From: Daucus carota subsp. sativus
Taxonomy: Eukaryota; Streptophyta; Magnoliopsida; Apiales; Apiaceae
NCBI RefSeq assembly: GCF_001625215.2
Contig: NC_030383.2
Location: forward strand, 58,084,949-58,148,948
Direction of reading: 5' to 3'
DNA length: 64,000 nt
In this document: positions 6,163 through 56,000 of the stretch, in pieces
Position numbering within the stretch: position 1 is the first letter of the stretch
Layout of the letters: every line of letters starts with the position of its first letter
The notes under the pieces: model-generated
What the model was told of the DNA's origin: nothing
Seen by the model: the letters and a program-made list of their open reading frames with translations, nothing else
The model's database searches: none
Translations under genes and position numbers: made by a program

Positions 6163-6600
6163 AGAATTAATTACACTTTGTAACTCCTAAGTTTGCTCCA
6201 AACGCAGTTTAGTATCTGAACTTTAAAACGTGACAATATGCACTCTAAACTTAACATTCCCGTACAAGTTGTAACCCTAGTTATTATTCTGTCCAAATCT
6301 GCCGTTAACTTTAACTGTTTGAGATGTAAAAGTGTGTATATTAGTTTCTAACAGCTACTTTACCCCTGTGACCCCTCAAAGTTTATTTATTATATTTTGA
6401 AATTATTTCTAAAAACACATGTAACGATGTAAAAAAAATAAAATAATTTTTAAGATATGTATTTATTTTAAAATTTTAAAATAAGTTACATCGTTTATGT
6501 AAAAGAAATAAATTTTCAAATTCGAAATCTAGATACATATTTTAAAAATTATTTTAATTTTTTTACATCATTGTGTGTGTTCAAGAATAATTTCATAATA
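6163..6600. mobile_element. Long-TIR (Mutator-like) element, left part
   Basis: Bases 6187-6385 are inverted and repeated at 11618-11813 (CAGTTTAGTATCTGAACTTT against TTTAATACCTGAACTTTAAA; both arms share TATTCTGTCCAAAT and TTAGTTTCTAACAG). Long terminal inverted repeats of about 200 bp suggest a Mutator-like non-autonomous element. Bases 6400-6595 contain a second, internal inverted repeat centred near 6500. The element is split by MLE1, so the mariner insertion is the younger event. Confidence 0.6.
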
Positions 6601-6797
6601 TACTCCCTCTGTTTTCATATAGTTGACGTTTTGAAAAAGAGAATTTGTTTTTTAATACTTGACGTTCTCATATTCCTATGCTGCATTATCTGCTCCTTAA
6701 CCTAGTTTTCATGTGTTCATATTAATTTGGACTTTGAATATTCAACACCTAACACAGAACAATAAATACTAAGTGATTTTATCAATGAATTCGTGTG

Positions 6798-6805
6798 TAT
6801 AAATA
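6798..6805 (+). promoter_or_regulatory. Possible TATA box of the MLE1 small gene
   Basis: TATAAATA lies 56 bases upstream of the ATG at 6861, a plausible plant promoter spacing once a short leader is allowed. Sequence-only call in AT-rich DNA. Confidence 0.35.
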
Positions 6806-6860
6806 CACTCACTAGTTTTGTTTTATATACTCTCTTAGTTTTTCTATAAATTCTTATATT

Positions 6861-7067
6861 ATGGCTACTGTGTATTCTGGAGAAGAAAAAGATCAAGGTA
6901 AGGAAGATAAAAAAGAAGAAACACCAGAAAAGGAAGAAAAAAAGCAAGATTTTTTGGCAAAAGATCTTCGACAAGATGTTATAATAATGTCAAATATATA
7001 TTTTCCAAGTGTCACACCATATTTGTTGCAGGATGAAGAGCGTGAAGATAAAAGTTACAAAGGATGA
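6861..7067 (+). CDS. Small charged open frame near the MLE1 left end, hypothetical
   Basis: This 68-codon frame, starting MATVYSGEEKDQGKED, is extremely rich in Lys and Glu (KKEETPEKEEKKQD) and has no recognisable domain. It is preceded by a TATA-like box and runs convergent to the transposase gene from the opposite end of the element, the same position as the DLNEPP gene of MLE2. It shows no DLNxxP motif. A GTAAGG donor-like site at 6897 and a TTGCAG acceptor-like site near 7030 mean it may be spliced. It may be a second gene of the mariner element or only a chance frame. Confidence 0.35.
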   Translation: MATVYSGEEKDQGKEDKKEETPEKEEKKQDFLAKDLRQDVIIMSNIYFPSVTPYLLQDEEREDKSYKG

Positions 7068-7117
7068 TATTGTATTAAATAAATATTATTATATCAATGT
7101 ATGTTAGTTTTGAGATG

Positions 7118-7778
7118 TAGGGGTGATCACGGTCTGGTTTAAACCGCAAAATCCGCATAAACCAATCCGATATTAATCCGATCCAAACCGAAACCGAAAT
7201 GAGGTTTACGGTTTCGGTTCGACTAATTTAAAAAACCGTGGTTTGTGGGTTGGTTTCGGTTTTATATTAAACCAACCCGTTATAAAACCGAACCGCATAT
7301 TTATATATATACAATATAAATATTTAATATTATAGATATTCAAAATATTAATTTTTTAGCTTTTATTTGCTGGGTTGTTGTTGTTTTTTACAAGTGCTGG
7401 ATTGTTGTTTAGTTACATACGGTATCAATACCGATTACAAGTGATATTAATACAGTAGTCCACGACTTTGAATCAAGTTTATGCATTTTATTAGACTAAA
7501 GTTTGTATTTTAATTTAACTATGTGAAATTGTGTAAATGGAGACAAAATGATAGTACTTTATTTTCTAATATTATTCATGAATCCTCATCTCTAATTATA
7601 AGCCTTAGTCATAAACCGATCAATCCGCTTAACCGAACCATCAAAAACCGCACCGCTTGGTCCGGGTTAATTGGTTTACGGGTCACGGGTTGGTTTGAGA
7701 TTTTAAAAAACTGCTAATGTATGGTTTGGTTCCGGTTCTAGCTCCAACCCGAACCAAACCGGACCGCGATCACCCCTA
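7118..7778. mobile_element. hAT-type MITE, 661 bp
   Basis: An exact 8-bp target duplication TTGAGATG (7110-7117, 7779-7786) flanks terminal inverted repeats starting TAGGGGTGATCACGGTCTGG on the left and TAGGGGTGATCGCGGTCCGG read from the right. The interior is rich in AACCG/CGGTT motifs on both strands near the ends and encodes no transposase. It is nested in MLE1, so it arrived later. Confidence 0.9.
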
Positions 7779-8278
7779 TTGAGATGAACTCATTTGAATC
7801 TTGAATAATGTTATTTTGTTGTTCAATGTAAAATTTTGAGTTCGAAGTGATTTAAATTAAGAAGATGCATAAAATCTAATTAACATGTATTAAAATATCA
7901 AATTTTTGATTTTTTTTAAATTAACAATATTTTAGTCTCGATCTCTCTCTTTTTTATATCTTTAAAAATATATTTTAGATAGAACTCCAATAAAACAATT
8001 TTGATATTTAATTTAAATACAGCTCAAGAAGTTATAAATTTGATAATATTGTCTTTCAAATATAAAAATATTATCTCTATTATATATAATTTATGAAAAA
8101 AATATTTTATCTATTTTGATATTATCCAAAGAAATAAAAGAGTGATATAAAATATTGTCTCTATTATCATATAGTTTATAAAAAATTATATTTTCTCATA
8201 TGTATAACATTTTTGTTGTATTTGATAAATAAATATTAGTTTGTAAATAAATTTTTAATATATAAAACTATAACTCAA

Positions 8279-8331
<53 letters not shown>
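8279..8331. repeat. (AC)n(AT)n microsatellite
   Basis: A run of AC dinucleotides (to about 8296) passes directly into AT dinucleotides. It lies in the non-coding 3' part of MLE1. The surrounding 7787-8554 is AT-rich with no other recognised feature. Confidence 0.9.
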
Positions 8332-8334
<3 letters not shown>

Positions 8335-8554
8335 GATATATTTTGTATGTAGTTACCATTAATTTAATAAAAATATTAAATATGTATAGAAATATATACA
8401 TATATTTTTTATCAGTTTTTAATAATTTTATGTGAATAACAAAAATGAACATATAAATAGGATAATATAAATATTTTCAAATGAAGAGTATATATGGATT
8501 AAAATTGATATTTAATTCAAATATTGAATTGTTTCATCAACAAGATTTGGATCA

Positions 8555-11272
8555 CAATCTATTTGATCAGGTAATTTTCCTTCTCTTTCTAGAGTATTTT
8601 TGCTAATATATACGAGGGATTTTGTAATTATTATCACTTTTTACTTTCATAGTTTCCCTCATACATAACTACAAACTCAAAAAAATATGATTCAGCTGCT
8701 TAACAGGGTAACTCTTAAAACTTTCTTCAATAGCAGCTATAAGATCATCTACTGATTTTACCGTCACTTTATACTTTAAGGATTGAAGAGCTCTGAAAAA
8801 TCCAAGATCCAAGATATTTAAGTCGGGAGAGTTCGGAGGTTGACACATTAAACATATATCAAAATCTTCTTCTTGTGCAGCTTCACAAAATTCTGTATCG
8901 GTAGGATTGACATGTGTCTTGGCATTATCTTGCTGAATATAAATTGTCTCAATATTTCTCACTGGCCATTTTTCTCTCACTGCTGGCAATACTTTTTGAG
9001 TCAAAAATTCTCTCACATTTTCTCTTTTCACAGATGTTATTGCTTTTGTCTCAAGTGTCCCTGCAGGCCTATTTCTACTACTCCTCTTGGCAGGCTCCTT
9101 GGTAACAAATGGAAAAATTTCAATTTTCCCATCAAATAAGACTTTCCCTTCATCGTCAAATCGTGGACGAGCTGTAGCTGCCAAAAACATAACTTTGGTG
9201 ATGAAATTCTTACTTTTGCACGTACGATGAGGCTCCTCCTCATCGGCCATAATATAATAAGTCTCGGTAGTTTTTGACATGTAAAACCACTTCTCATCTA
9301 TATGAATTATTTTGGACATATCCATAAATTTTGGCTCATGTGGAAGACTATTTTTGTCATCATAGATAGACAAAATCTTAGTTTAGCTTTCTTGTTATCT
9401 TCATTTAGAATCGGTTATCGGTTTGGTTGGACTGCTGTGCCGTTTTATAACACCTTTTTTCAGATTCTTGGATAACACTGACGTGCTAAGTTTCATAGCA
9501 GCTGCTGCATCACGGAGAGTTTTTCTCTTTGTAAGAGGAAGATTTCGAAATTGCTCCCAGTCAACACTTATTCTTTTTCGGCCAAAATTTTTTGTTTTCA
9601 AATGAGATACATCAGTAGCTCCATCTCTCAAATTTTTCTTTGATAGCTTCCAAATACGTTGCACGGTTCTCATTGGTATGGAAAACAAGGCTGCAACTTC
9701 TCTCCTTGTATTTTTCTTCAACTTTCCATTTACACTTTTTTGGAGCAGAGCAATGTAGACTGCATGTCTTTGTTCATTTGACAAAAATTTATTTTTCCCC
9801 GAATGTCTTACGGTCTCTGTTGTGTTTTCTTCTCCTGTAAAACTAGCCAGTAAACCAACATTAAATTGAAAATCAATATAATCAAGATATTTACTCCCAA
9901 AAAGTTAACTAATTACTTTTAAAAAAAAGAGACTTTAAAAAAATATCTTACTTTCAAATGGAGGCTCATTCAAATTAATATGATTAAATTCTTGAGAATG
10001 ATTATTTTCTAACTCCAAAGAATTTTCACCTAAAAAAAAAAAAAGCGAAAACAAGTCACACTAAATAATTGTTTACTAAAAATCATTAAATTGAAAATCA
10101 AAACAATCAAGATATTTACTCCCAAAAACTTCACCAATTACTTTTTAAAAAACGAGACTTTAAAAAAATAATCTTACTTTCAAATGGAGGCTCATTCAAA
10201 TTAATATGATTAAATTCTTGAGAATGATTATTTTCTAGCTTAAAAGAATTTTCACCTACAAAAAAAACAAGTGAAAACAAGCCACCCAATATAATTTTTT
10301 TTGAAAATTATTAAATTGAAAATCAAAATATTCAAAATATTTACTCCCAAAAAGTTCACTAATTACTTTAATAAAAATGAGACTTTAAAAAATTAAGCTT
10401 ACTTTCAAATGGAGGCTCATTCAAATTAATATGATTAAAATCATGAGAATGATTATTTTCAAATTCCGAAGAGTTTTTACCTACAAAAAAAACAAGTGAA
10501 AACAAGCCACACAATATAATTTTTTTTGAAAATTATTAAATTGAAAATCAAAATATTCAAAATATTTACTCCCAAAAAGTTCACTAATTACTTTAATAAA
10601 AATGAGACTTTAAAAATTAAACTTACTTTCAAATGGAGGCTCATTCAAATTAATATGATTAAAGTCATAAGAATGATTATTTTCAAATTCCGAAGAGTTT
10701 TCACCTATAAAAAAACAAGTGAAAACAAGCCATGCAATATATTTTATTACTAAAAATCATTAAATTGAAAATCAAAATAATCAATAAAATATATTTACTC
10801 CCAAAAAGTTCACTCCAATTAATTTGATTTCTTGCAAGTCTCGCTTCAGATTGAGATGCAGTGTACTCTCCTCCTTCTGTAAAATGTTGTGAGCCCAATT
10901 CATCTGCAAATACACATAAAAATATATAATTTGATAAATTTAGATATAGAAAATCATTTACAAGAAAAAATATTTACAAATTTGAAGATAACATAAACTT
11001 ATTTTTTTTATAAAAACTATAGTTATCATAGATGTTAAATGATAAAAAGAATACAAGAAAGTGTATTCACATGATACATGCCAGATGTAAATATAAACAA
11101 TAACATGAAGCATAAACATATAATTATATCAAAAATATAAAACTAAGCAAGAGATATGATACATACATATACATATACAGAAAATACAAGCCCTAAAGAG
11201 AAATCACATACCTTGTGCTGAAATATTCTCTTCTGGTGAAGCATTCAAATCAATATAATAATCTCCATCCAT
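8555..11272 (-). pseudogene. MLE1 mariner transposase gene with 5' LNEPP exons (disabled)
   Basis: Proposed exons, 5' to 3' on the minus strand: 11212-11272 (MDGDYYIDLNASPEENISAQ), 10814-10903, four 78-bp exons at 10627-10704, 10403-10480, 10178-10255 and 9952-10029, then a long exon from 9834 down. All junctions are GT-AG and all splice in phase 1. The long exon encodes a helix-turn-helix N-terminus (LSNEQRHAVY, RTVQRIWK) and a DD39D catalytic domain (IHIDEKWF, IQQDNAKTH, PPNSPDLNILDLGFF). Against the intact MLE2 transposase it has two frameshifts (near 9405 and 9365) and a premature stop at 8669-8671. Homologous sequence continues to about 8560. Transposase activity is therefore lost, while the small upstream exons stay open. 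Exon 1 holds an exact DLNxxP motif (DLNASP) and each repeated exon holds INLNEPP, resembling EAR co-repressor motifs. Confidence 0.75.
9952..10704 (-). repeat. Tandem exon array: four 225-bp exon+intron units
   Basis: Four units repeat with spacing of 226, 225 and 224 bases. Each contains a 78-bp block flanked by AG acceptor and GTAAG donor, all in phase 1. The encoded repeat is of the type SENS..ENNHS..FNHINLNEPPFE with few substitutions and no stops in any copy. The introns of about 147 bp are equally similar, so the units duplicated at DNA level as exon plus intron. Because each exon is a multiple of three with symmetric phase, adding or dropping copies leaves the downstream frame intact. 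Confidence 0.85.
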
Positions 11273-11323
11273 CTTGCATAGATATTTTTGATGTGTTTTT
11301 GTGTGTTATATGCACGCTCATCA

Positions 11324-11331
11324 TTTTTATA
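11324..11331 (-). promoter_or_regulatory. Possible TATA box of the MLE1 transposase gene
   Basis: TATAAAAA on the minus strand lies just over 50 bases upstream of the proposed ATG at 11272. The spacing is plausible, but the DNA is AT-rich. Confidence 0.35.
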
Positions 11332-11607
11332 ATACTCTTATGGAGGGAATGAGAAGAGGGAAAAAAATGGGAAATTTTTTCATTTGAATCATCTTAAAAT
11401 TGTGGAGGGAGGTTTTGAAGTGTTTATGCTAGCTCACGTAAGATTAAACATTGTTGTGAGTTTTTATGTATTCTCATTATTATTAATTATAGTTGTAAGT
11501 TTCAATAAGATAACAAAGAAGTATACCTAATTGTACGTGTTTTGATAGGACTTGTTAATATGTGTACATACACCTAAAACGTCAACTATATGAAAACAGA
11601 GGGAGTA

Positions 11608-11813
11608 ATACATAATTTTTTAGGGGTCACAAGCGGTAAAGTATCTGTTAGAAACTAATATACACACTATTATCTTTCAAATAGTTAAAGTTAACGATAA
11701 ATTTGGACAGAATAATGGCCAAGGGTTACAACTTGCACGGAAATGTTTAGTGTCTGGTGCATATTGACATATTTTAAAGTTCAGGTATTAAACTGTGTTT
11801 GAAGCAAATCTAA
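11608..11813. mobile_element. Long-TIR (Mutator-like) element, right part
   Basis: Inverted counterpart of 6187-6385, split off by the MLE1 insertion. Its outer end abuts the next MITE at 11814, so the original terminus may be overwritten. Confidence 0.6.
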
Positions 11814-23045: not shown

Positions 23046-24358
23046 TAAATATACTTATATAAAGGAGAAGTGAGGGGCGTGTAGCTAGGTGGCGCCTCTC
23101 ACATCGCTCCGTTCTATTTTTCTGGAATTTTCGGATGAAAAATATCAAAAATTAGAACTACTTTTTTTAGTTTCGGATATATTAAAAGCAAGTTTCAGAT
23201 TCTGATTTTGTTTCAGATTATTTATGGAATCAATATACTTATATAAAGGAGAAACGAGGAGCGTATATGTGGCGCCTCTCACATCGCTCCGTTCTGTTTT
23301 TCTAATTTTCTGAAATTTTTAAATGAAAAATATCAAAAAATTAGAACTACCTTTTTTAGTTTCGGACATATTAGAAGCAAGTTTCAAAATCTGATTTTGT
23401 TTCAGATTATTTATGGAATATAGTAACTTGAAAGTTTTGATATGATTTTGTTTCAGATTATTTAATTATGGGAAAGAGTAGCACACAAGTCTCTCTGCAC
23501 CTATAAATACCCCTATAGGTTGTAGGGTTTTGGATCATATAAACACAACATACTCTCTCTCAATACCACAACCTTACCTCTCTCTGGTGATAAACGATAA
23601 GTGAAGGTTGTTTGTACGGTATTAAAAAAAAAAGATTGTTACAAGTAAAGGTAGTTATATACCGCTATGTGGGAGTCGACAAATCCAAACACGTGAGAAG
23701 AATATAGTCCTGACATGATATTGATGGATGATATTAATAAATTAACTATTAGTGATGCATGTTTGTTGGTTATTCTTTTATAATATATGTTTTGTTCATC
23801 GAACATGTTTGTTTTTGTTAATTTTTATATGATTTACTTTGTATACATGAAAAAATTATTCATGCATTATCTGTTTGCTCCGTTCAAGCAACTTTTAAGT
23901 GAAGGCTGTTTATACAGTATTAAAAAATAAAGGTTGTTACACGCCAGGGTAGTTATTGACCGCTATCTCGCAGATTTAAGTTAGATGTTTCTTGTGTATA
24001 ATCAATCCAAAAAAAAATTAGAGGATGGTGACAATGTAAGAACATAATTACTTTTCAAAAAGAAAAACACAAAAAAAAATTAAGATTCGTCGTGTTTTAA
24101 ATTGTTAATTACGTGTAGAAATTTATTTTCAATTTTTCACCATGAATTATAGTCCAAATTTTGCAATTTTATATATTAGTATTGGTATTATATCAAGATT
24201 TTTATAATATAAAATTTATTTTAATTTGCAAATATTAATTCTTAATCATTAATATACTTTTTATAGACATGCACAAAATTATTGTACTCTATAAACATTA
24301 ATATCGAATCATTAATATAATTTTTATTGACCGCGACAACGCGCGGATTCTCAACTAG
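23046..24358 (+). mobile_element. Non-autonomous Helitron with two stacked 5' ends
   Basis: The 3' end has a GC-rich hairpin (CCGCG...CGCGG, 24331-24346) followed by CTAG at 24355-24358 and a host T, as in Helitrons. One 5' end lies at 23230 (TC after host A, then AATATACTTATATAAAGG). A second, slightly decayed 5' end with the same following sequence (GGCGCCTCTCACATCGCTCC) starts at 23046. No RepHel open frame is present. The same family occurs inverted at 43785-45273, also with a doubled 5' end. A block at 23485-23580 with CACCTATAAATACCCC resembles a captured promoter plus leader. The flank 22674-23045 is plain AT-rich DNA. Confidence 0.85.
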
Positions 24359-25690
24359 TATAGTTAACAATAAGATAATGAACAGTTGGGCCATATAGTT
24401 TCGGTGACAACCGGTCTCCCGTTGTGATATGAGGATAAAGTCATATAGCCCATCAAATCATCAAACTATGTCAAATAATATTGAGCTCGCTATCAACAAA
24501 TTTAATATTTAAAAAGTGACGTAATAATGTTTGACATAAATTTTGAGACCTCGTTACCAATGATTTCGAAGTGATTGATGTGTTGCGTGTTTCACTCAAT
24601 TAAACTTCACATTACGATAGGAATGTATTACACGGTATTACTCCCTCTGTCCCTCTCATTTCTTTACATTTACTATTTTGGGATGTCCCTCTCATTTCTT
24701 TACATTACCATAAATAATAAGTTTTTTCCATCATTACACCCACTATCCTCCCCCACTATCTCATATTTAACAATAAAAATTACTACTCCCTCCGTCCCAA
24801 TTCTTTTGGCTGAGTTACCCTTTTAAGCTGTCCCAAAAAAATGTCCAAGTTTCTATTTTTATGTAATTAGTTCCCATATTACCCCCTTGCTATGCATGTA
24901 TAAGCGTGCACTGCAGTGCACACATCTCCTTTTCTAATGATGACTTTTTCTCTTTTTCTCTCGTGAACATAAGAACACTTATTAGGGTTGCACGTCTCAA
25001 TGTTAACTTTAAATACTTAGCCGCACACATCGATCAATTTTTTTTTCATTTTCCCTCTCAACACTGGACAATGTTTATTTATTTGCAAACTGAGTTCACT
25101 AAAATTTACATGATCTGACATTGTATTTAAATATTTCTAATGCTAGCATTTTTAGTTTTATTATTTTTTAATTTCTACCATAAAAAATGTTTAAAATTAT
25201 ATTTCATATCAGTTTAGAATAAAAATTAAAGCTTACTATAAACATGACTTTAATGAATATATTGTCACCAAAATTAATTGTAAGAAAAATTTAACAATAA
25301 AATATAAAATAGTATCTCTAATATAAAATTTTATAAAGTCAAGTATTCGTTTCAAATAATATTACTTATAAAATTTTATTAAAACTAAAACTTAATATGA
25401 ATAATTTTATTATTCATAATTTTAAGAATAATTTAACAATCAAATGTAAAATAATATTTTTTATATATTATTTTTATATTGTCTTTCATTTACAAACTGA
25501 AAATAATTTTTCGCTTAAAAAATAAAAATGAAATATTGATTAACATAAAAATATAATGTCCCTCCAATTATTTTTTCTTGTTTATAGTCCCACCAAAACT
25601 CCCTCCAACATCAATTATTTTCACTTCAAAAAATTTAGCTTAAAAATTTGAACTCCCTCCATAAACTCCCTCCATGATCTCCTCATTTGC

Positions 25691-25698
25691 CTATAAGA
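25691..25698 (+). promoter_or_regulatory. Possible TATA box of the MLE2 transposase
   Basis: CTATAAGA lies 72 bases upstream of the transposase ATG, followed by a short leader. Call is by position and motif only. Confidence 0.35.
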
Positions 25699-25770
25699 AC
25701 ATGACCGGCTTACTAGATTTTTCATTCAAAATTTACAACACCACACAAGATTTTACTTTCAAGTTTACAT

Positions 25771-27087
25771 ATGGAAGAAAATACAACAAATGAAGATGGA
25801 GCAACTACATATAAACACATGAGTGCAGATCAAAAGAGAATTGTTTTTGAGTTTCTCCAGCAAAATTCTAGGAATATGAAAGTGAAAAAGGGTTTCAAAA
25901 AAATTGCAGCCACCAAATTCTCAATTTCAGCTCGCACCATTACAAGAATATGGTTACTTGGTAAGCAAAACATTGCTAATGGTATTGATTTTAGTGGTAA
26001 GTCATTTGGTCATGCAGGAAGAAAGAGGGTAGAAATTGATGTCAACATGGTGAAAGAAGTACCTTTCAACAGAAGAACAAATATCCGGTCACTGGCATGT
26101 GCCATTCATTTATCAAAGTCTACTCTTCATCGGCGCATCCGAGAGGGACATCTTCGCCCACATACAAATTCAATAAAGCCATATTTGACGGAGGAGAACA
26201 AGAGAGCACGTCTAAGGTTTTGTTTATCTATGATCACTCATGATATGAATTTAAACATTTCCTTATTTTCAAGCATGTTAAACTCTATTCACATAGATGA
26301 AAAATGGTTTACCATGACAAAAAAAAACCAGAGGTACTATATTCTTCCCGATGAGAACCCACCCTTACGTACATGTAAAAGTTCTAATTTTATTGATAAA
26401 ATCATGTTTTTATGTGTGGTTGCACGTCCTAGATTTGACACTTTGAGGAACACCATGTTTGAGGGAAAAATTGGTATATTTCCCTTCATTACAAAAGAAC
26501 CTGCCAAGAGAAAAAGCAAGAATAGGCCTGCTGGTACTTTAGAAACTAAACCAATAAACCCAATAACCAAGGATGTGACAAGGAAAATGATGATAGATAA
26601 AGTGCTTCCAGCAATTGAATCTATGTGGCCAGGAGGAAATTCAGGTGGTATAATCTTTGTCCAGCAAGATAATGCAAAACCCCACATTAGTGTAGATGAT
26701 CCTGAATTTGTGGAAGCTGCTAAAAGGAATGGTTTTGATATACGATTGTGCTTTCAACCTCCTAATAGCCCAGACCTAAATGTGCTGGACTTGGGATTTT
26801 TTAGAGCAATACAAACTTTACAGCATGAACAGGCACCCAAAAGTATAGATGAACTTGTTGCGGCAGTTGAAAAATCTTTTGTTGAGCTACATCATGATAA
26901 GCTCAACAAGATTTTTTTGACGTTACAACTAAACATGATCGAGATAATGAAGAAGGCAGGAGGTAACAACTATAAACAGCCTCACTTTGACGACAATCAG
27001 TGCCCTAATGGAAGCATTCCCCTCCAGTTATCTTGTGATGAGGAGCTTATCAACTCTGTTCATAATCACTTGTCTCATTCTAGTTAG
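25771..27087 (+). CDS. Mariner-like (DD39D) transposase, intact
   Basis: A single uninterrupted 438-codon exon encodes a plant Tc1/mariner-superfamily cut-and-paste transposase. The N-terminal part (about residues 15-130) holds helix-turn-helix segments for terminal-repeat binding (MSADQKRIVFEFLQQ, ISARTITRIW, HLSKSTLHRRI). The catalytic metal ligands are D176 (IHIDEKWF), D300 (VQQDNAKPH) and D340 (PPNSPDLNVLDLG), giving the D39D spacing typical of plant mariner elements. The length is normal for the family. The start MEENTT aligns with the internal REENTT that begins the last exon of the MLE1 gene, so MLE2 lacks the upstream LNEPP exons of MLE1. Chromosomal insertion is at TA. Every frame-disrupting change seen in MLE1 is absent here. 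Confidence 0.95.
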   Translation: MEENTTNEDGATTYKHMSADQKRIVFEFLQQNSRNMKVKKGFKKIAATKFSISARTITRIWLLGKQNIANGIDFSGKSFGHAGRKRVEIDVNMVKEVPFNRRTNIRSLACAIHLSKSTLHRRIREGHLRPHTNSIKPYLTEENKRARLRFCLSMITHDMNLNISLFSSMLNSIHIDEKWFTMTKKNQRYYILPDENPPLRTCKSSNFIDKIMFLCVVARPRFDTLRNTMFEGKIGIFPFITKEPAKRKSKNRPAGTLETKPINPITKDVTRKMMIDKVLPAIESMWPGGNSGGIIFVQQDNAKPHISVDDPEFVEAAKRNGFDIRLCFQPPNSPDLNVLDLGFFRAIQTLQHEQAPKSIDELVAAVEKSFVELHHDKLNKIFLTLQLNMIEIMKKAGGNNYKQPHFDDNQCPNGSIPLQLSCDEELINSVHNHLSHSS

Positions 27088-27244
27088 TTAGCTGCAGTGT
27101 TGTTTTCCAGCTATCTGTATTACTTCTATGTTTGTTAAATTGTGCACTAAGTCTTTTGCTTGTTTTATGAATTTCAATGCATTTTTATTTAAGTGTTTCT
27201 TGAATTGATAATTTAATTTTATTAGCTAATTTGATTATATTATT

Positions 27245-27775
27245 AATAGTGTGATTTAAAAAAATACAATACAAATTTATGATAGTGCAAGTTTAATTAT
27301 GTAAGCGATTTTATCAGCTAATTTAATTTAATGATTCAAGTTTAAACATGTCATTATTTTTCTAGAAAATAAACTAATGACCTCAATATTATTTTTCAAA
27401 TTTTATATTAGCGTGATTTATATTCTTATTAGTGTGATTTAAAAAAAAATTAAATTTATGATAGTGAAAATTTAAGTGAGTATGTGATTAATTTTTTTAG
27501 CCAATTTAATTTAATGATTCAAGTTTAAATATGTTATTAATTTTTAGAGTAATGACCTTCATGTGTTAATTTCAAGTTTTACCTTAGTTTGATCATATTC
27601 TCAATAGAGTGATTAAAAAAAAAACAAATTTATGATAATGCAAGTTTAATTATGTAATTGATTTTATTAGCTAATTTAATTTAATGATCCAAGTTTAAGC
27701 ATGTCATTATTTTTCTAGAAAATGAACTAATGGCTAATTTTATTAGCTAGTCTAATTTAATTTTATTAAGCATTT
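27245..27775. repeat. Three tandem units of about 175-183 bp inside MLE2
   Basis: Units start near 27245, 27428 and 27602. Each runs from AGTGTGATT plus an A-run through AAATTTATGATAGTG, TTAATTTAATGATTCAAG and on to ATGTTATT/GTCATTATTTTTCTAG. They lie between the transposase gene and the convergent DLNEPP gene and do not encode protein. Confidence 0.7.
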
Positions 27776-28037
27776 ACTATGCTATACAATGTAAAATATA
27801 ACAAAAAAAAATTAACAAAAAATTAGTGCATAAGTAGACATAAAACTTAAAAACATACACTTCCCGAAACATATCCGTGAAACATTGCAAAAATATTTGA
27901 TTACATCAAATATAAATCATTAACATTAGTTAATATCTCCATCTTCTCTGCATGCAGTATAATCATCTAGCCCAGCTCTTAATAACAACCTAAAAAAATT
28001 ATAAGCATATGTTAGATTTTATTTTAATCAGACATAA

Positions 28038-28274
28038 TTATATAAAAAATAAAAATAAATAAAAAAACTTACAGTTACAACATGAGATAAAAATACTCAA
28101 CATTTGCATGATGCTTTGCTGCTTTTCTATAGACATATTTTCAGGCGGCTCTGGTTCATTGATATCAACAACTCTGGGTATTTGAGGTGGCTCATTAAGA
28201 TCAAAAAATATTTTAGGTGTCTGAGGTGGCTCATTAAGATCAAACCATATTTTCTTCTCCTGTTTCATTTGCAT
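28038..28274 (-). CDS. MLE2 accessory gene with DLNEPP (EAR-like) repeats
   Basis: A minus-strand frame of 78 codons starts MQMKQEKKIWFDLNEPPQ and contains two exact FDLNEPP repeats and a third diverged one (VDINEPEPPE), spaced about 14-15 residues. DLNxxP is a defined class of the plant EAR repression motif, which binds TOPLESS-type co-repressors. The frame sits convergent to the transposase near the right terminus and has a TATA box about 70 bases upstream. The 3' end may be spliced: GTAAG near 28073 and an acceptor near 27991 are visible, but joining them brings a stop within a few codons. I do not recognise the rest of the protein. That it is expressed, and represses anything, is inference. 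Confidence 0.55.
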   Translation of the reverse strand: MQMKQEKKIWFDLNEPPQTPKIFFDLNEPPQIPRVVDINEPEPPENMSIEKQQSIMQMLSIFISCCNCKFFYLFLFFI

Positions 28275-28340
28275 GTTGTATATTCAAAGAGAAAATAGAA
28301 GAAGAAAAAAGAGCTAATGGCCAGAGAGTTTTAACGTTGG

Positions 28341-28350
28341 TTTATATAGG
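28341..28350 (-). promoter_or_regulatory. Probable TATA box of the DLNEPP gene
   Basis: CCTATATAAA on the minus strand lies 66 bases upstream of the ATG at 28274, followed by a pyrimidine-rich leader. This is a good plant core-promoter arrangement within 225 bases of the element terminus. Confidence 0.5.
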
Positions 28351-28829
28351 CTATATGTAAACAACCACCTACCTGCATTTAGTGTAGAGTCAAATGAAAG
28401 TTCCTACGTTGTTTTGAAAAAATGAAAGTCCCCATACACTTTTACTGTAAACATTGAAAAGCTGTTAAAAAAGGGGATATGCATTGATAAAGATAAACAC
28501 TCCATGCACTATTATTAATATGTGTGCAAAAATCAAATCAGCCAAAAGAATTGGGACGGAGGGAGTATTACACCCACTACTTTCCTCCACTATCTCAAAT
28601 CTATTATTAAATATTGATGGGTCCCACCACTTTACCCACTTTTCATCTAACTTTACTCATTTTTCATACATTGTCTTGGTCTCCGTGTCCCCCTCCAATG
28701 TAAACAATTGAGGGGGACGGAGGGAGTATTATAGTAGGAGTATTATGATTAGGCGCCCTGCATCAGTAATAGAGTAACTAGTAGTAACAAGAAGCGTTTC
28801 AACCGCCCATATCAAATGCTCTTGCGTTA

Positions 28830-42200: not shown

Positions 42201-43784
42201 AGCATTCTCTCAGAGGCACCTCAACCAAACGTGAAATTCTGAGCTAAATTTATGTAATGTCATCCTTGTCTAAATGTATTTGTCAGAATAATTTAAATTA
42301 GCATACATTTTAGAACTCAAGAATCCTACAGTATTTGTATACTACAAGATTTTATGTGAAATGAATGTTGTAAATGTGTTCTGTATGCTACTGTTTTGCA
42401 TGCTATCTATGGGGCCTTCAAATCTCTACAGCAACCAGCTAAAATCAACCACAGCAACCCATTGTATTCAAGTATTTCATGCTTCTAGACTGCAAGTGAC
42501 TGGTAGCGCTAAAGAGTAAAGCCATCCACTTGAATTCATCTTAAGTCATAGGGGGCGTTTGAATCGCTCATTGATTTGGGAATCAGGTAAATGGGATTAT
42601 GGGAATGAGAATGATATGAAAACCCAAGACGTAGTCAAGGAAAGAATTACCTATCTTATAGGAATGAAGTTCCCATTCCAACCTACTAACTTCCCAATCA
42701 AAACACTGGTACATGGGACAAGGGTTCAGAATCCTGTGTTAACCAGACTCATTAATCATGAACCAAACCAAACGCCCTCCTACATGAAAATGATGGTGAC
42801 CGTGTGAGCTTATGCTCAGTCCAGGTTAGGCTATCTATTTGGTCGACGGCGTTTTTTAGTATTCGTATTCTTTCATTTACTTTTCTTTTGCTCACAGAAG
42901 CTTCTATTCCAACTTCTTACAGAAGTTGTTCTGGCAGGCAGCAGCATTCATGTTGTTTCACCAATTCGTATAATTTTCTTACTATAGGAGATTCATTTCT
43001 CCAAGAACTTAAACGATAGACGACACCAAGTCTGACGTGGCACTACTACAATCAGGAGATTCGATTCATATTAGGAAAATTATTCGTATACGAAATTGGA
43101 TACCAAATCGTTTACAAATGATATGTGTTAAATTTTGATCGAGGTGTCATTTTGTGTGATAGTTTGTATCCAATTTTATATATATATAGCACTGTTCTTC
43201 GTGTAATCAATACCAAGATCAGCACTACTGGCACACCATGGTTACACCATCTTGTTATACGACGGAGGACGGTTTGAGTTAACTTAAAAGAAATTTTAAA
43301 GTAAAAAGGTGGAGTAGAGTGACAAGTAAATTAATAATTTAAGACGCATATAAAATATAGTTTTATAACTCTTTTTTGTATAAAAATTTAGATAGTAAAT
43401 ATTTATTCAAAAAGAAAAATTGAACATAATTTATCAAACTATATTTTATGAGAGTATTAGAATGTGTGGCAAGGCTCCATCCCTAATGTAAATAAATTAT
43501 GTTCATGTTTCGGGGTCATTTGTTGATCTAATATCAATTATAATTGATAATTCTGACGATTAGATGTTGCTGAAGGTCGATTACGAAACTACTATGTTCA
43601 AAACTGATGTAGTTTGGATTGTTCAAAATTTAATTGTAATATTTTTTTATTTAAAAATTTTAAATTTTCTATTTGTTAAGCTATCTGAAAACAAAACGGC
43701 AATATGTTTAGCTAATTTTTTGTTTCTTCATCAGGTTTTAATTGACAGTCCGAGGGTTTGTCTCAGTTTCAAATATTTATTAAA
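42201..43784. other. Region between ALDH copy 1 and the inverted Helitron
   Basis: Contains the ALDH 3' UTR, then a probable hAT-type MITE at 42551-42780 (GGGGGCGTTTG left, inverted GGAGGGCGTTTGG right, no clear target duplication). A small foldback (about 43345-43452) and otherwise AT-rich DNA follow. No gene is seen. Confidence 0.45.
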
Positions 43785-45273
43785 CTAGTTGAGAAACCGC
43801 GCGTTGCGGCGGCATGTAAAAATTATATTAATGATTCAATATTAATATTTGTAGAATGCAATAATTTTGTGGCTGTTTATAAAAAGTATATTAATTATTA
43901 AAAATTAATATTTGTAGGTAAAATAAATTTTATTTTATAAAATCTTGATGTAATACCAATACTAATATATAAAATTGCAAAATTGGACGATAATTCATGC
44001 TGAAAAAATGAAAATAAATTTCTACACATAATTAACAATTTAATGCACGACGAATCTTATTTCTATTTGTGTTATTTTTTTTTGTAAAGTAATCATATTC
44101 TTACATTATCACCTTCCTCCAGTTTTTTTGAATTGATTGTGCACAAAAACATCTAACTTAAATCCATGAGATAGCAGTCTATAACTACTCTTACTTGTAA
44201 CAACCTTTATATTTTAATACCGTATGAATAGTCTTCACTTAAAAGTTGCTTGAACGGAGCAAACAGATAATGCATGAATAATTTTTTCCTGTGTACAAAG
44301 TAAATCATATAAAAACTAACAACAACAAACATGTCCGATGAACAAAACAAATATTATAAAAGAATAACCAACAAACATACATCACTAATAGTTAATTTAT
44401 TGATATCATCCATCAATATCATGTCAAGACTATATTCTTCTCCCGTGTTTGGATTGTCGACTCCCACATAGCGGTCTATAACTAACTTTGCTTGCAACAA
44501 CCTTTATTTTTTTTTAATACCATATAAACAACCTTCACTTATCGTTGCAGAAGAACGACACCATCGAGTTAGAAATCGAGCAAGAGAACTATCACCAGAG
44601 AGGGGTAATGTTGTGGTATTGAGAGAGAGGAGGTTGTGTTTAGATGATCCAAAACCCTACAACCTATTGGAGTATTTATAGGTGCGGAGAGACTTGTGTG
44701 CTACTCTTTCCCATAATTAAATAATCTGAAACAAAATCAGATTAAAACTTTCAGGCTGCTATATTCCATAAATAATCTGAAACAAAATCATATTCTGAAA
44801 TTTGCTTCCAATATATCCGAAACTAAAAAAGATAGTTCTAATAATATATCCGAAACTAAAAAAGGTAGTTCTAATTTTTGATATTTTTCATCCAAAAATT
44901 TCAGAAAATCAGAAAAATAGAACGGAGCGATGTGAGAGGCGCCACCTACATGCCCCTCGCTTCTCCTTTATATAGAAACAAAATCAGATTAAAACTTTCA
45001 AGCTACTATATTCCATAAATAACTGAAACAAAATCAGATTCTGAACTATAGAAACAAAATCAGATTAAAACTTTCAAGCTACTATATTTCATAAATAACT
45101 GAAACAAAATCGGATTCTGAAACTTACTTCTAATATATCCGAAACTAAAAAGGATAGTTCTAATTTTTGATATTTTTCATCCAAAAATTTCAGAAAATTA
45201 AAAAAATAGAACGGAGCGATATGAGAGGCGCCACCTACACGCCCCTCGCTTCTTCTTTATATAAGTATATTGA
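43785..45273 (-). mobile_element. Non-autonomous Helitron, inverted copy
   Basis: Read on the minus strand it begins TCAATATACTTATATAAAG after a host A (45274). It ends with a GC-rich hairpin (about 43797-43813), then CTAG (43785-43788) before a host T. A second 5'-end-like block (44925-44985) lies inside, as in the copy at 23046-24358. Both share the leader block with TATAAATAC and GTAGGGTTTTGGATCAT. About 1.5 kb, with no RepHel protein. Confidence 0.87.
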
Positions 45274-45453
45274 TTATTATCTTTTCATCAAAAAAAATAA
45301 AAATAAATTAACAAGCGATTTATAAATTGTTAGGATATTTGAGATATTATAAATTACTTAAATATTTGAATAATTTTAATCATAATATTTGATAATAATT
45401 TAAGAAGTACTCATGTTATAAAGAAGACGGTAAAGAATAAATAAAAAAAAATA

Positions 45454-50365: not shown

Positions 50366-50600
50366 AAAAATCATAATTTTGCATGTTAGGGGCCAAACTA
50401 TAAGTAGACAGGCATTTAGAAGGTGATAAAATAGCAACATGCATGATGCATTGTGCAAGAACAACTTTATCATGTTTGTGAAACCAAAAGAAAACGCCAC
50501 AAGACTGATACTTGTTCCTTAGGTTTATACACAAGATCGTAAACCACCAGAAATAGCCCACAACTAGATAGAAAATAAATACACATGTTTAATCTCAATT

Positions 50601-53405
50601 TCATCTTCTTCTAATCTCCAACCTTCTGACTTTTAGGCCCAGTCCTCTAGCAATAACTCTCGTAAACCATTTCAGTTTTCCAGCCATGAACATCATGTAG
50701 CCTACAACAAATCCTGGCACCACTCCACAGCAATATCCTATCACTAAAGATTTCCAACTAAAACCACAAAAGAAGTGATCATCATCTTCTTCTATTTCTT
50801 CTTCATTTTTTCCTACTTGTGTCTCAGTAATGCACTTCTTGGACAATGGACTTCCACATAGTCCCAAGTTCCCAGCATAGCTATCATTTTCAAATGTTTG
50901 GAACTGAGGTCCTTGTGGAATACGACCGCTAAGATTATTACTAGAGAGATTTAGACGTGACAGAAAATATATGCATGTGAGCTGCGGTGGAATGACTCCC
51001 GTGAGTTGGTTGAAAGAGAGGTCTAGTGACTCTAGCAGTAACAATTCCCCAATCGAATGTGGAATTTGACCTGAGAGATGATTGTGAGATAAATTAAGAT
51101 ATCGGAGTGACTTTAAATTTCCAATATATTCAGGAATCTCCCCCTCAAACTTGTTTCTTGATAGATCAATGGTTGTAAAAACAGTTAAAATCCTGACAAG
51201 TTCAATCTCTACCCCTTTGATCACTACAGTTATAGAATCACTGTAAGAAGAATCTCCCATGTAATTCAGCTGTACCTTGGTGACATCACCATTCATCATA
51301 GCATTGAAGTTTTTGATATATTTTTCTGGCAGAAGGCCCGAAAACTCGTTGCATGAAAGGTCAATGATTCTCAAGCTAGGAAATGGATGCTCTATCTTTG
51401 TATCGTTGCTTATGAAACCATGGAATTTGTTGGATTTCAAGACCAGAACTTGTAGAGTTGGAAGTGACTCTAGACAGTGGGGGAAGGTATCATGTATTTG
51501 ATTACTTCCGATATCAAGAACTTCCAAGTATGAAAATTTGGCAAAAGAGACAGGAATTGTTCCTTCCAGCTTATTGCTATTCAAATTCAAAGTTCTCAGC
51601 TCGCGAAAATTTGGTAAAGCTGATGGAAGACTTCCTGTGATATTATTCATCCTCAGATCCAACACCGAAAGAATGTTGTTTACACTTCTTGGACATGTAG
51701 GAAGTACACCGCTGAAATTGTTATAAGACAGATTGAGAATATGGAGAAAGCTCGAATTGCAGATAGAGGCGGGCAAAGATCCATTGAGCATATTAGAGTG
51801 GAGATCGAGAGAATGAATATTCTCAGCTGAAAGATACTGGAAGCCCCCTGTCAGGCTGTTGTGGGAAAGATTCAAATATTCTAGCGAAGTCTGCAACATG
51901 GACTCAATCCACTGAGGTATTTCTCCATAAATTTGGTTGTTTGATAGATCCAGGTAGTAAAGACCAAGGCTTTCTAATGATGTTGAAGCATTCCACTGAG
52001 GAATTTCTTCATCAATTTGATTGTTCGACAGATCTAGATATCCAAGGAATGAAGATCCTTTAATGAAATGTGGAAACTTGGTGATCTTGCAAGATGACAA
52101 ACCCAAATATCCAATATCTGGACTGAGAGTAGTCGAATGTGTATATCTTACAGATAGACTATTATTAGAAAGTGCAAGACCATATAGATGCTCCAGATGT
52201 GATAACTTTTCAACATCAAAGACACCGCTGAAATTGTTTGATGAAAAGTCTAGATCGCTGAGGTTTACAGGTTCATAGAAGGATTGCGGAATGGTTCCAC
52301 TTAGCAAATTTTGGCTACAAGAAAATGACTCCAGTGCTGACCTAGAGGAATCAAACTCATTTAGCTTACCTGTGAACCCATTACTACCTATATATAAACC
52401 TTCTATCGAATGATCAAACAACCAAGATGGTATAGTTCCATTTAGCATGTTATACGACAAATCCAGAGTAGCTAGTCTTGGGAAAGAGAGAGCAGTTACG
52501 TTTGATGGCAAGGATCCCGTAAATGAATTACTTGATAAGAATAAATTTACTAGTTGTCTTAAGTTGCCAACCCAAGATGGGAACTGGCCAATTAAATTGT
52601 TTTGACCGAGTGAAAGGACTTTTAGATTTTGAAGATTAGCTAAAGAGTTGGGAATTTGGCCAGTAATTTGATTTGATCGGAGATCAAAATCAGTAAGTTG
52701 AGTAAGGTTGCCCATGGACATTGGAATTTGTCCAATAATGTGATTGGAACCGAGGTCCAACTCATGAAGTTGAGTAAGGTTCCCCATTGATATTGGAATT
52801 GGCCCAGAGATATTGCAGGCTCGGAGTGACAAAGATCTTAAGGACTCGAGGTAGCCAACTGAATCAGGAATTCCTCCGTTTAGGGATACATATCGAAGGA
52901 AAAGATTCTGGAGACTTCCACTACTTCCCCACTTGACTTTCGGTAAAGTAACAGTGAGATGGGAGTTAAACGTTAAACGAAACTTTTGCAAGTTGGGTAG
53001 GTGGAAAATATCTTCAGGTAATACTCCACATAGATCATTGCGACTCAAGTTGAGGGACTGGAGGTGAGAAAGTTGGAAGAGGGTGCTGTTGGGAAGGATG
53101 GTTCCGACAAGCTGGCTGCAACTCAAGTCCAGTCCGATCACGTCCCTTGTCACCTGGTTGCAGGTAACTCCCTCCCACATGCAGCAATCAGAACTCATGC
53201 TCCAGTTCATCGTCTTTGGATATGGAGTAAAACAATATTTTGTAAAAGAAGTATTTATCATCAAACTAGTCTTAAATTGATACAGAGCAAGCTTTTGCGT
53301 ACTATGACTCAAATGGTTAGGGGTAGATGATGATGAAAGAGCAACATGCTGCTGTAAGAACAGCACAATAATAATGATTGTGAAAAGTTTCATAGATTTC
53401 CACAT
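50601..53405 (-). CDS. LRR receptor-like protein 1 (Cf/Ve type)
   Basis: This intronless frame of 934 codons encodes a signal peptide (LFTIIIIVLFLQQHVALS) and an LRR N-terminal cap with paired cysteines (SSDCCMWEGVTC). A long run of extracytoplasmic plant LRRs (LxxLxLxxNxLxGxIP) follows, then a non-LRR island at about residues 700-745 (SYSDSITVVIKGVE), four more LRRs and a C-terminal cap (NLGLCGSPLSKKC). After that come an acidic juxtamembrane stretch (EEEIEEDDD), one transmembrane helix (about 883-905, with GxxxG-like spacing) and a short basic tail. There is no kinase, so signalling would need partners such as SOBIR1/BAK1, as known for Cf proteins. One LRR is doubled near LDLSNNQIDEEIPQW / LDLSNNQIYGEIPQW. 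The likely role is surface recognition of pathogen or self peptides; the ligand is unknown. The ATG (MWKS) aligns with the starts of RLP2 and RLP3. Confidence 0.9.
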   Translation of the reverse strand: MWKSMKLFTIIIIVLFLQQHVALSSSSTPNHLSHSTQKLALYQFKTSLMINTSFTKYCFTPYPKTMNWSMSSDCCMWEGVTCNQVTRDVIGLDLSCSQLVGTILPNSTLFQLSHLQSLNLSRNDLCGVLPEDIFHLPNLQKFRLTFNSHLTVTLPKVKWGSSGSLQNLFLRYVSLNGGIPDSVGYLESLRSLSLRACNISGPIPISMGNLTQLHELDLGSNHIIGQIPMSMGNLTQLTDFDLRSNQITGQIPNSLANLQNLKVLSLGQNNLIGQFPSWVGNLRQLVNLFLSSNSFTGSLPSNVTALSFPRLATLDLSYNMLNGTIPSWLFDHSIEGLYIGSNGFTGKLNEFDSSRSALESFSCSQNLLSGTIPQSFYEPVNLSDLDFSSNNFSGVFDVEKLSHLEHLYGLALSNNSLSVRYTHSTTLSPDIGYLGLSSCKITKFPHFIKGSSFLGYLDLSNNQIDEEIPQWNASTSLESLGLYYLDLSNNQIYGEIPQWIESMLQTSLEYLNLSHNSLTGGFQYLSAENIHSLDLHSNMLNGSLPASICNSSFLHILNLSYNNFSGVLPTCPRSVNNILSVLDLRMNNITGSLPSALPNFRELRTLNLNSNKLEGTIPVSFAKFSYLEVLDIGSNQIHDTFPHCLESLPTLQVLVLKSNKFHGFISNDTKIEHPFPSLRIIDLSCNEFSGLLPEKYIKNFNAMMNGDVTKVQLNYMGDSSYSDSITVVIKGVEIELVRILTVFTTIDLSRNKFEGEIPEYIGNLKSLRYLNLSHNHLSGQIPHSIGELLLLESLDLSFNQLTGVIPPQLTCIYFLSRLNLSSNNLSGRIPQGPQFQTFENDSYAGNLGLCGSPLSKKCITETQVGKNEEEIEEDDDHFFCGFSWKSLVIGYCCGVVPGFVVGYMMFMAGKLKWFTRVIARGLGLKVRRLEIRRR

Positions 53406-55754
53406 TGCAGCTTTTTTTGAGCCTGTGTTTATGTTACGGCAGATTTAATGCTCTGAGTTTTATTGGAAGTCTCAGTTCTCAACCAAATAAGTAGACTAAG
53501 CTAAATTTGAATTAAAATTTCTGTTGTATAAATAAGTATATATTTTGTTGAAATTTTCATTGTTTGCGTAATACAAACTGTGTGGTGTCATTGCCTTAAT
53601 TTTTTCTACATAAAATTATTAATAGTTTTTTCTCCTTTCATTGGATAAAAACAGCTGACTAGTATTTAAATAAATATATCCAGTGAGATCAGCACTGTTG
53701 GCCGAGTCAAATGGATCAGTACTGGGAGGTCGCACACATGGTGACACACTTACACCCTCTTCTTAGACTTGGGCTCCTATAGTAGAGTAGTATATTTACA
53801 GAGAAAAATGCTCCTAAGTACATAGTTAGGTAAATTATCTAAACAGGCAGTACAAATTAATGACAGTTTTATAATTATTTGATCTAATCTTTTAAATTAC
53901 ACTAAACCTGCATTTATATTAAAAATCTCCTGGGCTCACTAAACTGAGGTGAGTACGTGCTTAGAAGCATTAAGCTCGTATTCATAATAGAGCAGGTTTG
54001 TGTTGTCCCAGACTACTGTGTCGAAGTGCAGATCATTAAATCTTAGTGTGGCATTATCTGATAATTTGGAAATGGTACTATCAGATGCTTTAAATCTAAA
54101 GATTTGAAGTTGATATACCAAAATAAAAACTGTGAATATGTTAGTAAAATTATTTTCATATACATAAATTCATAAGCACGCCTGCAATATTCTTGGCAGT
54201 TACTACCGGCTACCAAAAGCAGAATGAGTACGTGCTGCTGCACAATAGTAAAAGTCCATCAGTTATATCATCTGTGCTGCGTCCTGCAGAAGTACACAGC
54301 TTAAAATATGTCTTCATACCTCAGTGTGAAAGTAAAATATTTTTCTGAAAGCTAATATCTTCTAAGTGATTTGAACTAGTCCACAGTCAAATGCAGTTAA
54401 GAGTCCCTTTATTTCATTACTTGTAAATTGTGTTCTAATACCAGATATACTTGCTTTAATCAATTATTTGCATATCTGCAACATGCCATTTTTCTGTCCA
54501 TCGGTTGAAGGGGCTACTTTAGGTTGCGTTCACTTGGTAAAATGGAATGAGGGGAGAATGAAATGAAAAATTATAAAAAAGTATATTAATTTTTATCGTT
54601 CAAGTAAAAGTAAAATTGTGTCTGCCATCGGCTTTTCTAAAACTGTATCGTGTCACCCCCTTGATTTTTCAACATAATCCTGAGTTTTTGTCAATTTTTC
54701 ACTGTTTGACATAAATCATCTATATTTGACAAGTAAAATAATAATAACAATGTAAACTGAGGCCCTTTTCAAAAAACAAATGAATGTATAAACTGAGGTC
54801 AGCATGGTAGTCTAATGTGATATATCAGAGTTGCAGACATGGAAAATAATATTTCATGGGCAAATAATACTCGTCGTATTTAAGAATAAGAATGAAAAGA
54901 ATTAATAGAGCTTGCTAAGAAATGAAGAAAACTGCTCTGCATTTAACATTTCTTTATTGTCATTGTTATCACTTATGACTCATCTTATTCTCCTTATAAG
55001 GTTCCAACTCCATTACTGTAGGTAAATAAGAATCTCCTATATAATTCGATTATAAGGTCCTTTTACTCACCGTTCCTTCTGCAATTAAAGTTGATATTTG
55101 TATATGATGGAAGAACACCAGAAACTATTTTGCAAGAGACCTCAATGGTTCTGGCTTTAGGGTATGGATAGCCTTTCTTAGATGTCTTGTTCACGTAACC
55201 ATAAAATTCATGTGATTTTGAAGCAACTCGAGTTATGGAAGAGTTCTAGATTTTGTGAAAATGTACCCTTTTTAATTTTTATATGATGATTACTTTCAAG
55301 ATCAAGAAGTTCCGAGAGAAATATTGATGATTTATACTCGCTCCGTCCCTCTCATTTCTTTACTGTTTTTTCACTACGTGACATGCATTTCAAGGTGTAC
55401 ATAAAAATATAGTTTCATAACTTATTTTTTGGAATTTTCTTTTTTTAAATAAAATTTAAATATTAATTTTTTATTTAAATAAAAAAATTAAAATAATTTA
55501 TAAAATTATACTATAGGAGTTTTAAAATACACGTTAAACCCTCCCTTTTGTCAAGAATTGGATGCAAGCTGTGTTCTGCTACCAGAAACATATATTTAAT
55601 GAAAACATTGCAGATCTTCAATCCACTACTATTTCGAATTAGCCCGTGGTTGAGGAATTTAGAGTTGATAACTATTTAAAACTTGTGTGATGAAATGTTA
55701 TATTGGTGAAAGACATAAATTAGTATGCTTATTTGATAATTCAAGCAGAAAATC
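53406..55754. other. Spacer between RLP1 and the RLP relic
   Basis: Upstream region of RLP1 plus AT-rich DNA. A MITE-like left end (GGTTGCGTTCACTTGG) occurs at 54523 and a Stowaway-like end with a foldback lies at about 55336-55540; neither is complete. Small open frames near 53939-54243 are not convincing. Confidence 0.35.
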
Positions 55755-56000
55755 TAGCTATAATTATCTCAGCTTCTCCTGATTCCAGCCATCTGACCTC
55801 AGGGCTCCATGCTCTGAGAATGATTTCCATAAACCATTTTGGCTTTTGCGGCCATGAACATAATGTGTCCTCCACCAAATCCCATCACCACTCCACCCCC
55901 ATATCCGATCAGCAGAGCTTCCCAAGTAAAATAATTAAAAGGGTAATTATCATCTTCATTTTCTTCTCCTTGAGTTGCATATTGTTGTGAAGTTTTAGAA
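55755..56000 (-). pseudogene. RLP C-terminal relic
   Basis: The minus-strand frame reads EENEDDNYPFNYFTWEALLI, then GYGGGVVMGFGGGHIMFM and a terminal AKAKMVYGN. This matches the acidic segment, transmembrane helix and cytoplasmic tail of the neighbouring receptor-like proteins. Everything upstream (the LRR ectodomain) is gone, and the very end is frameshifted relative to KVRRLEIRR. It is an isolated remnant from cluster rearrangement. Confidence 0.7.

Follow-up and report, generated by a model that had tools for sequence, protein, structure and literature searches.

Two mariner-like elements in the carrot window

The 64,000-nucleotide stretch of carrot contig NC_030383.2 that we analyzed (the window) contains two mariner-like elements, MLE1 and MLE2 (Table 1). 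Both are PlantMar DD39D elements, with TIRs that start CTCCCTC and a TA target site. In each transposase, 34 residues lead from the aspartate of QQDNA to that of SPDLN, and the aspartate of LN(I/V)LD, which we take to be the catalytic residue of the DD39D triad, lies five residues farther on, giving a spacing of 39.

Table 1. Features of MLE1 and MLE2, in window coordinates.
Feature	Position	Strand	Evidence or remark
MLE1, mariner-like element, TA target site	6601..11607	-	TIRs identical 32/32 bp
MLE1 left TIR	6601..6632	.	32-bp TIR match
MLE1 ORF2, 68 aa, RQDVIIMSNIYFPSVTPYLLQD, copy lacking a DLN motif	6861..7067	+	also matched by L030 ORF2 query, E 6.4e-8
MLE1 catalytic domain, premature stop at end	8669..9382	-	DDE_3 E 6.5e-05, under Pfam cut-off
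MLE1 exon 7, DUF7769, to first frame break	9401..9834	-	PF24964 E 5.8e-24
MLE1 exon 6, INLNEPPFE repeat 4 (HINLNEPPFE)	9952..10029	-	translation + exon joining
MLE1 exon 5, INLNEPPFE repeat 3 (HINLNEPPFE)	10178..10255	-	translation + exon joining
MLE1 exon 4, INLNEPPFE repeat 2 (HINLNEPPFE)	10403..10480	-	translation + exon joining
MLE1 exon 3, INLNEPPFE repeat 1 (HINLNEPPFE)	10627..10704	-	translation + exon joining
MLE1 exon 2 (DELGSQ...NWSELFG), linker, phase 1 at both ends	10799..10903	-	exon joining
MLE1 transposase exon 1, MDGDYYIDLNASPEENISAQ, strict DLNxxP	11212..11272	-	translation + exon joining
MLE1 right TIR	11576..11607	.	32-bp TIR match
MLE2, mariner-like element	24784..28567	+	TIRs identical 30/30 bp
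MLE2 transposase, uninterrupted 438 aa, DUF7769	25771..27087	+	PF24964 E 4.2e-8
MLE2 ORF2, unspliced ORF: FDLNEPP, FDLNEPP, VDINEP	28038..28274	-	translation

The initial annotation described a disabled transposase gene at 8555..11272, with a DLNASP exon and four INLNEPPFE exons running in phase 1 into the transposase frame. The element itself is longer (6601-11607), and the rest of that description is borne out. Exon 1 encodes MDGDYYIDLNASP, which holds DLNASP. All six internal joins between predicted exons 1-7 are in phase 1 and use AG and GT sites. Once joined, the exons give an open frame of 303 codons that runs past DUF7769 (a domain that presumably marks the N-termini of plant mariner transposases) to its first break. 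The frame is lost near 9382-9401, a stop follows at 8669-8671, and the C-terminal frame, whose remnant ends at 8512, is broken again. A search of sets of genome contigs and viral contigs with the catalytic domain returned no relatives.

Exons 3-6 of MLE1 sit in a tandem array (225-bp unit, 4.2 copies); with phase 1 at either end, every copy leaves the frame intact. Only exon 1 has a strict DLNxxP; the four repeats read NLNEPP. All six instances of [DN][LIV]NEPP in a six-frame translation of the window fall within MLE1 or MLE2, and 100 Markov simulations of 64 kb gave none. The count of strict DLNxxP in the window, four against a simulated mean of 0.81 and maximum of 4 (100 Markov simulations), is by itself weak evidence. 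Across the four copies, 11 of 78 exon columns vary versus 26 of 144 intron columns, the motif-bearing exon end is invariant, and each of the six pairs has pN lower than pS; these counts are small, so the argument for selection rests on the family instead. A genome search for similar repeat exons gave 13 matches, four of them MLE1's own, and at four further places such an exon recurs in two to three copies 215-226 bp apart.

Several other repeats were seen in and around MLE1. A hAT-like insertion lies inside it at 7110-7786, with an 8-bp target duplication (TTGAGATG, 7110-7117 and 7779-7786) and ends TAGGGGTGATC. A 200-bp inverted repeat (84% identical, 6192-6392 and 11606-11808) lies on both sides of MLE1, which seems to be nested in another palindromic element; there is an additional palindrome at 6391-6602. 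Elsewhere in the window are near-identical inverted repeats about 20 kb apart (23228-24362 and 43781-45275, 89-92%) and, at 50572-63997, gene-sized duplications near 50.6, 56.4, 60.0 and 63.4 kb with 77-86% identity.

MLE2 shares 56% identity with MLE1 over 220 aligned residues of the catalytic region, and its transposase starts where MLE1 exon 7 starts (EENTT is common to both). We found no DLN exons before the MLE2 transposase and no N-terminal DLN. Its perfect TIRs and unbroken transposase frame suggest that MLE2 may be a young insertion; its nearest relative among the loci we read, L042, has a broken transposase frame. MLE2 in turn seems to be nested in a Stowaway-like element (24639-28728, TIRs 26/30 matching).

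On the opposite strand, MLE2 carries a second ORF (ORF2) of 78 aa with two strict motifs and one DINEP. A TATA sequence lies 74 bp upstream of its ATG, and a donor-like GTAAGT at about 28072 may end a first exon. Neither this ORF2 nor that of MLE1 matched a Pfam family above cut-off, and a sequence search against solved structures returned nothing credible (best E 0.11 for MLE2 ORF2 and 0.15 for the MLE2 transposase). The initial annotation had reckoned with intact relatives that lack the repeats as evidence against its reading; the MLE2 transposase is such a case, but MLE2 as an element is not, since its ORF2 has two DLNEPP motifs.

DLNx(x)P motifs are strand- and place-specific across carrot elements

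In the carrot assembly (441 Mb, 11 contigs), a DUF7769 search gave 76 matches at 73 distinct places. We read 30 of these loci: MLE1, MLE2, the 20 top-scoring besides MLE1, and eight picked for long open frames or an adjoining ORF2 match, a choice that biases the set toward better-preserved copies. TIRs matching at no fewer than 22 of 30 bp bound 17 of the 30; L024 was bounded by hand after its twin L029, as its own inner pair matches at 17/30 ungapped. The strand test likewise comprised 17 elements, with L021 left out as a near-copy of L020, the similar L024 and L029 both kept, and L022 included without its downstream zone.

Upstream of DUF7769, strict DLNx(x)P occurred 21 times in sense and never in antisense (Markov expectations 0.1 and 0.15), and downstream ten times in antisense and never in sense (0.35 and 0.2). 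A loose pattern, [DN][LIF]Nx(x)P, gave 30 sense and one antisense instances upstream (1.95 and 1.45 expected) and 15 antisense and one sense downstream (1.35 and 1.85) in the same 17 elements. At least one strict motif is present in 14 of the 17 TIR-bounded elements and absent from L037, L040 and L041. A first-exon-like M-x(2-8)-hydrophobic-[DN][LF]N lies upstream in 19 of the 30 loci, and in none of them on the antisense strand. With five near-copies left out, 22 of 25 loci hold 43 strict instances, in all of which F, I, L or V precedes the aspartate; one, in L035, has a stop directly after DLN. DLN is spelled by 14 codon triplets that use all six leucine codons, although the 43 instances include repeats and related elements and are not independent.

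Motif and transposase are fused outright in two loci. L038 (482 aa) and L039 (522 aa) encode the motif and DUF7769 in one uninterrupted ORF, so splicing is unnecessary there; the motifs of both are of the DLNxP rather than the DLNxxP form, and the L039 ORF has two NLNEP and two DLNQP. Used as a genome query, the L039 N-terminus matched five places, three of them (its own included) directly before a DUF7769 match. In the other loci, upstream motif exons would have to be spliced to the transposase. A phase-fitting acceptor precedes DUF7769 in nine of ten loci examined, L036 being the one without. With a simple donor pattern, phase-fitting sites close to the motif were found in MLE1, L022, L034 and L036 only; L016, L017, L019, L024 and L032 had none close to the motif, and the one found in L020 is far from it. 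Ahead of internal DLN exons, MLE1, L016, L020 and L032 have acceptor candidates in the fitting phase; for L022 and L024, the closest good acceptor is in a different phase. Predicted exon ends outside MLE1 are therefore tentative.

We mapped the N-terminal motif by hand onto a tree of 28 transposases (L032 and L033 were too short; FDFN of L018 was counted as present). At least three changes are required. Transposases with the motif occur to either side of the midpoint: the L038/L039 pair has it, as does a large group that includes MLE1, and L040/L041, L037, MLE2/L042/L043 and L031 lack it. One simple reading of this unrooted tree would be an ancient origin of the motif followed by losses.

A second, convergent gene is under purifying selection overall

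The downstream antisense motifs fall in small ORFs that converge on the transposase. A single transposase gene is usual for PlantMar elements, though not defining; both window elements and others have this second convergent ORF. In all 13 elements measured, the ORF2 ATG lies 248-367 bp inside the TIR, and in eight of them TATA[AT]A lies within 160 bp of it. Five of these ORF2s align at EEVIxMSxIYFPSVxxFLLQE, followed by DLNxxP in four of them and not in that of MLE1. The core pattern I[YF][FILM]P is likewise strand-specific downstream (13 antisense, two of them stray in L037 and L041, versus 0 sense), with two and three instances on the two strands upstream. An origin of ORF2 by inverted duplication of the 5' end of the transposase is disfavored by its own IYFPSV motif and its different context.

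The ORF2 motif is present in MLE2, L042 and L043 although their transposases lack one. At the same position, L038/L039 and L040/L041 encode different small proteins without a strict DLN, which we counted as ORF2 by position alone. Those of L040 and L041 are a similar, distinct small protein (FDDPTGLLHIFLP / FEDPTGMLQIYLP) in the same convergent placing.

Three ORF2 proteins, used as genome queries, hit 7, 11 and 16 places, query elements included. Of these 34 matches, 19 (3, 7 and 9) lie no more than 3.1 kb from a DUF7769 match, against 0.095% for a random place, and all 19 are convergent with it; the other 15 have no DUF7769 match within 3.1 kb.

We estimated pN/pS from 22 ORF2 sequences, which range from 37 codons (a remnant) to 116. 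Of the 13 pairs computed, nine separate ones together gave pS 0.299 and pN 0.138, a ratio of 0.46 (Fisher p 1e-13), with some rows including unspliced or frame-shifted ends. Without the two pairs assigned by position, the seven sequence-related pairs gave 0.56 (p 0.001). The ratio was below 1 in eight of the nine pairs, MLE2/L042 standing at 1.29; the MLE2/L043 pair, outside the sum, gave 0.20 at pS 0.74. ORF2 is thus under purifying selection overall.

These data bear on whether the motif is simply inherited junk of dying elements, as the broken state of MLE1 and several further copies might suggest. The strand asymmetries of 21:0 and 10:0, the silent codon variation and the pN/pS values below 1 already contradict that reading, and we regard it as very improbable.

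The motif resembles plant EAR motifs that engage TOPLESS

DLNx(x)P defines a class of EAR motif, whose pattern MLE1 exon 1 fits and its four NLNEPP repeats do not. The tomato repressor SlERF.F12 has DLNEPP listed among its two EAR motifs, and RAP2.1 has DLNQIP, with the same motif and proline position as here (PMC9956375; papers are cited by PMC number, for the excerpts consulted). SlERF.F12 has TPL2 and histone deacetylase partners, although the excerpt does not state which of its two EAR motifs is responsible for binding (PMC9956375). EAR repressors are host transcription factors whose motif is mostly C-terminal (PMC9956375), whereas here the motif belongs to mobile-element proteins and is N-terminal in the transposase. 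Also comparable are the fungal effectors Jsi1, Sr10312 and SPSC_03537, foreign DLNxxP proteins that interact with TOPLESS (PMC8126959); these are secreted effectors, and the likeness meant is one of motif. Changing the DLN of Jsi1 to AHN abolished TOPLESS binding, and motif mutants of two other smut effectors pulled down less TOPLESS (PMC8126959). By analogy with the AHN mutant, the NLNEPP repeats of MLE1 may be the weakest copies of the motif.

The EAR reading of DLNxxP offered by the initial annotation is strengthened by the strand-specific, codon-diverse and widespread occurrence of the motif and by the hydrophobic residue before every aspartate. The TOPLESS N-terminal domain that it proposed for a binding test is another matter: Jsi1 contacts TOPLESS through its DLNxxP at the second WD40 domain, toward the C-terminus (PMC8126959). 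By the same analogy, we think it probable that the motifs of these elements bind TOPLESS. The motif is short and could have another reader, and the evidence comes from one genome; the motif-free transposases of MLE2, L042 and L043 and the MLE1 ORF2 without DLN are counterpoints in our own data.

One such reading is that the EAR likeness is incidental and the motif binds a different partner, for instance by linking ORF2 with the transposase or with some nuclear transport factor. Both element proteins carry it, and nuclear export signals in bamboo mariner transposases affect excision (PMC6699137). Those signals look unlike the motif, however (PMC6699137), and hydrophobic-DLNxxP, the exact DLNEPP included, is a listed plant EAR form (PMC9956375), so we consider this explanation rather doubtful.

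Possible roles of co-repressor binding

We lean toward an EAR-type hydrophobic-D-L-N-x-x-P, carried by N-terminal transposase exons and by the convergent second gene, that probably contacts the C-terminal WD40 region of TOPLESS/TPR co-repressors. A TIR-bound transposase would then bring co-repressor to the element or the insertion site, and the ORF2 protein, competing for TOPLESS, would tune this recruitment. The initial annotation had the transposase docking a co-repressor at its own termini, which fits the transposase but is half the picture, as ORF2 carries the motif too.

The motifs, chiefly those of a free ORF2 protein, might instead act as a decoy that occupies TOPLESS and relieves repression of the element or of defense genes, in the way suggested for fungal effectors. 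The MLE2 ORF2, with its strict motifs and no Pfam match above cut-off, could play such a part, and for Jsi1, which carries DLNELP, interference with repressors of the DLNxxP type has been proposed (PMC8126959). The transposase side, however, has more motifs (21 versus 10) and binds DNA, and a scarce transposon protein may fail to titrate an abundant co-repressor; we hold a decoy to be a minor possibility.

Alternatively, the motif could tether the transposase to TOPLESS-occupied gene regions, much as a motif of the Ty5 integrase binds Sir4. Its N-terminal place, ahead of DUF7769 and the catalytic core, suits such targeting. Yeast has, to our knowledge, no plant TOPLESS. Carrot Stowaways are non-randomly distributed relative to genes (PMC6881990), but in the seven events reported for bamboo Ppmar2 in yeast, insertions lay no farther than about 500 bp from coding regions (PMC9632168), and we consider targeting unlikely. 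The present data are compatible with self-repression, decoy and targeting. Ppmar2 transposes in yeast with the transposase as the sole element protein supplied (PMC9632168), so that any role of the motif or ORF2 is probably regulatory.

Relation to known elements

PlantMar elements (DD39D; Osmar, Soymar, Ppmar and Dcmar) share with MLE1 and MLE2 their TIRs, TA target site, DD39D-type transposase and 2-6 kb size. They are described as typical in structure (PMC7325037), and rice mariners usually encode a single transposase (PMC4423477); the elements here differ in having two genes and DLNxxP exons. Carrot Dcmar1-11 are comparable, with TIRs of 24-32 nt, element sizes of 1922-4940 bp and, in eight of them, a DD39D triad, and the Dcmar1 transposase is expressed in four of 20 tissues (PMC6881990). 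The excerpts of that account mention no N-terminal DLN motifs or second gene, and a match of any Dcmar to MLE1 or MLE2 is not established.

Other DNA transposons encode more than a transposase, among them ciliate TBE and Tec, PIF/Harbinger and CACTA, and in Tec one ORF lies in the complement, as ORF2 does (PMC7325037, PMC4423477). These belong to other hosts or superfamilies and have other accessory proteins. The open-access literature, to which our search was confined (subscription journals lay outside its scope), yielded no report of an EAR-type motif or second gene in plant mariners and no mention of DUF7769. Within that literature, the DLNxxP motifs and the second convergent gene appear to be new to plant mariners; PlantMar elements and EAR motifs were already known.

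Among eukaryotic transposons, mariners count as the simplest, each with a single transposase. We suggest tentatively, at somewhat under even confidence, that plant mariners are two-gene transposons whose transposase and accessory protein mimic EAR motifs and engage TOPLESS, controlling expression, copy number or insertion of the elements and of Stowaway MITEs. Plants contain these MITEs in very large numbers, and a conserved second gene together with co-repressor docking motifs in each of the two proteins would give their source elements a further level of regulation. The motif also offers a ready way to test their coexistence with genes. If this is true, the TOPLESS hub is used by transposons as well as by fungal effectors.
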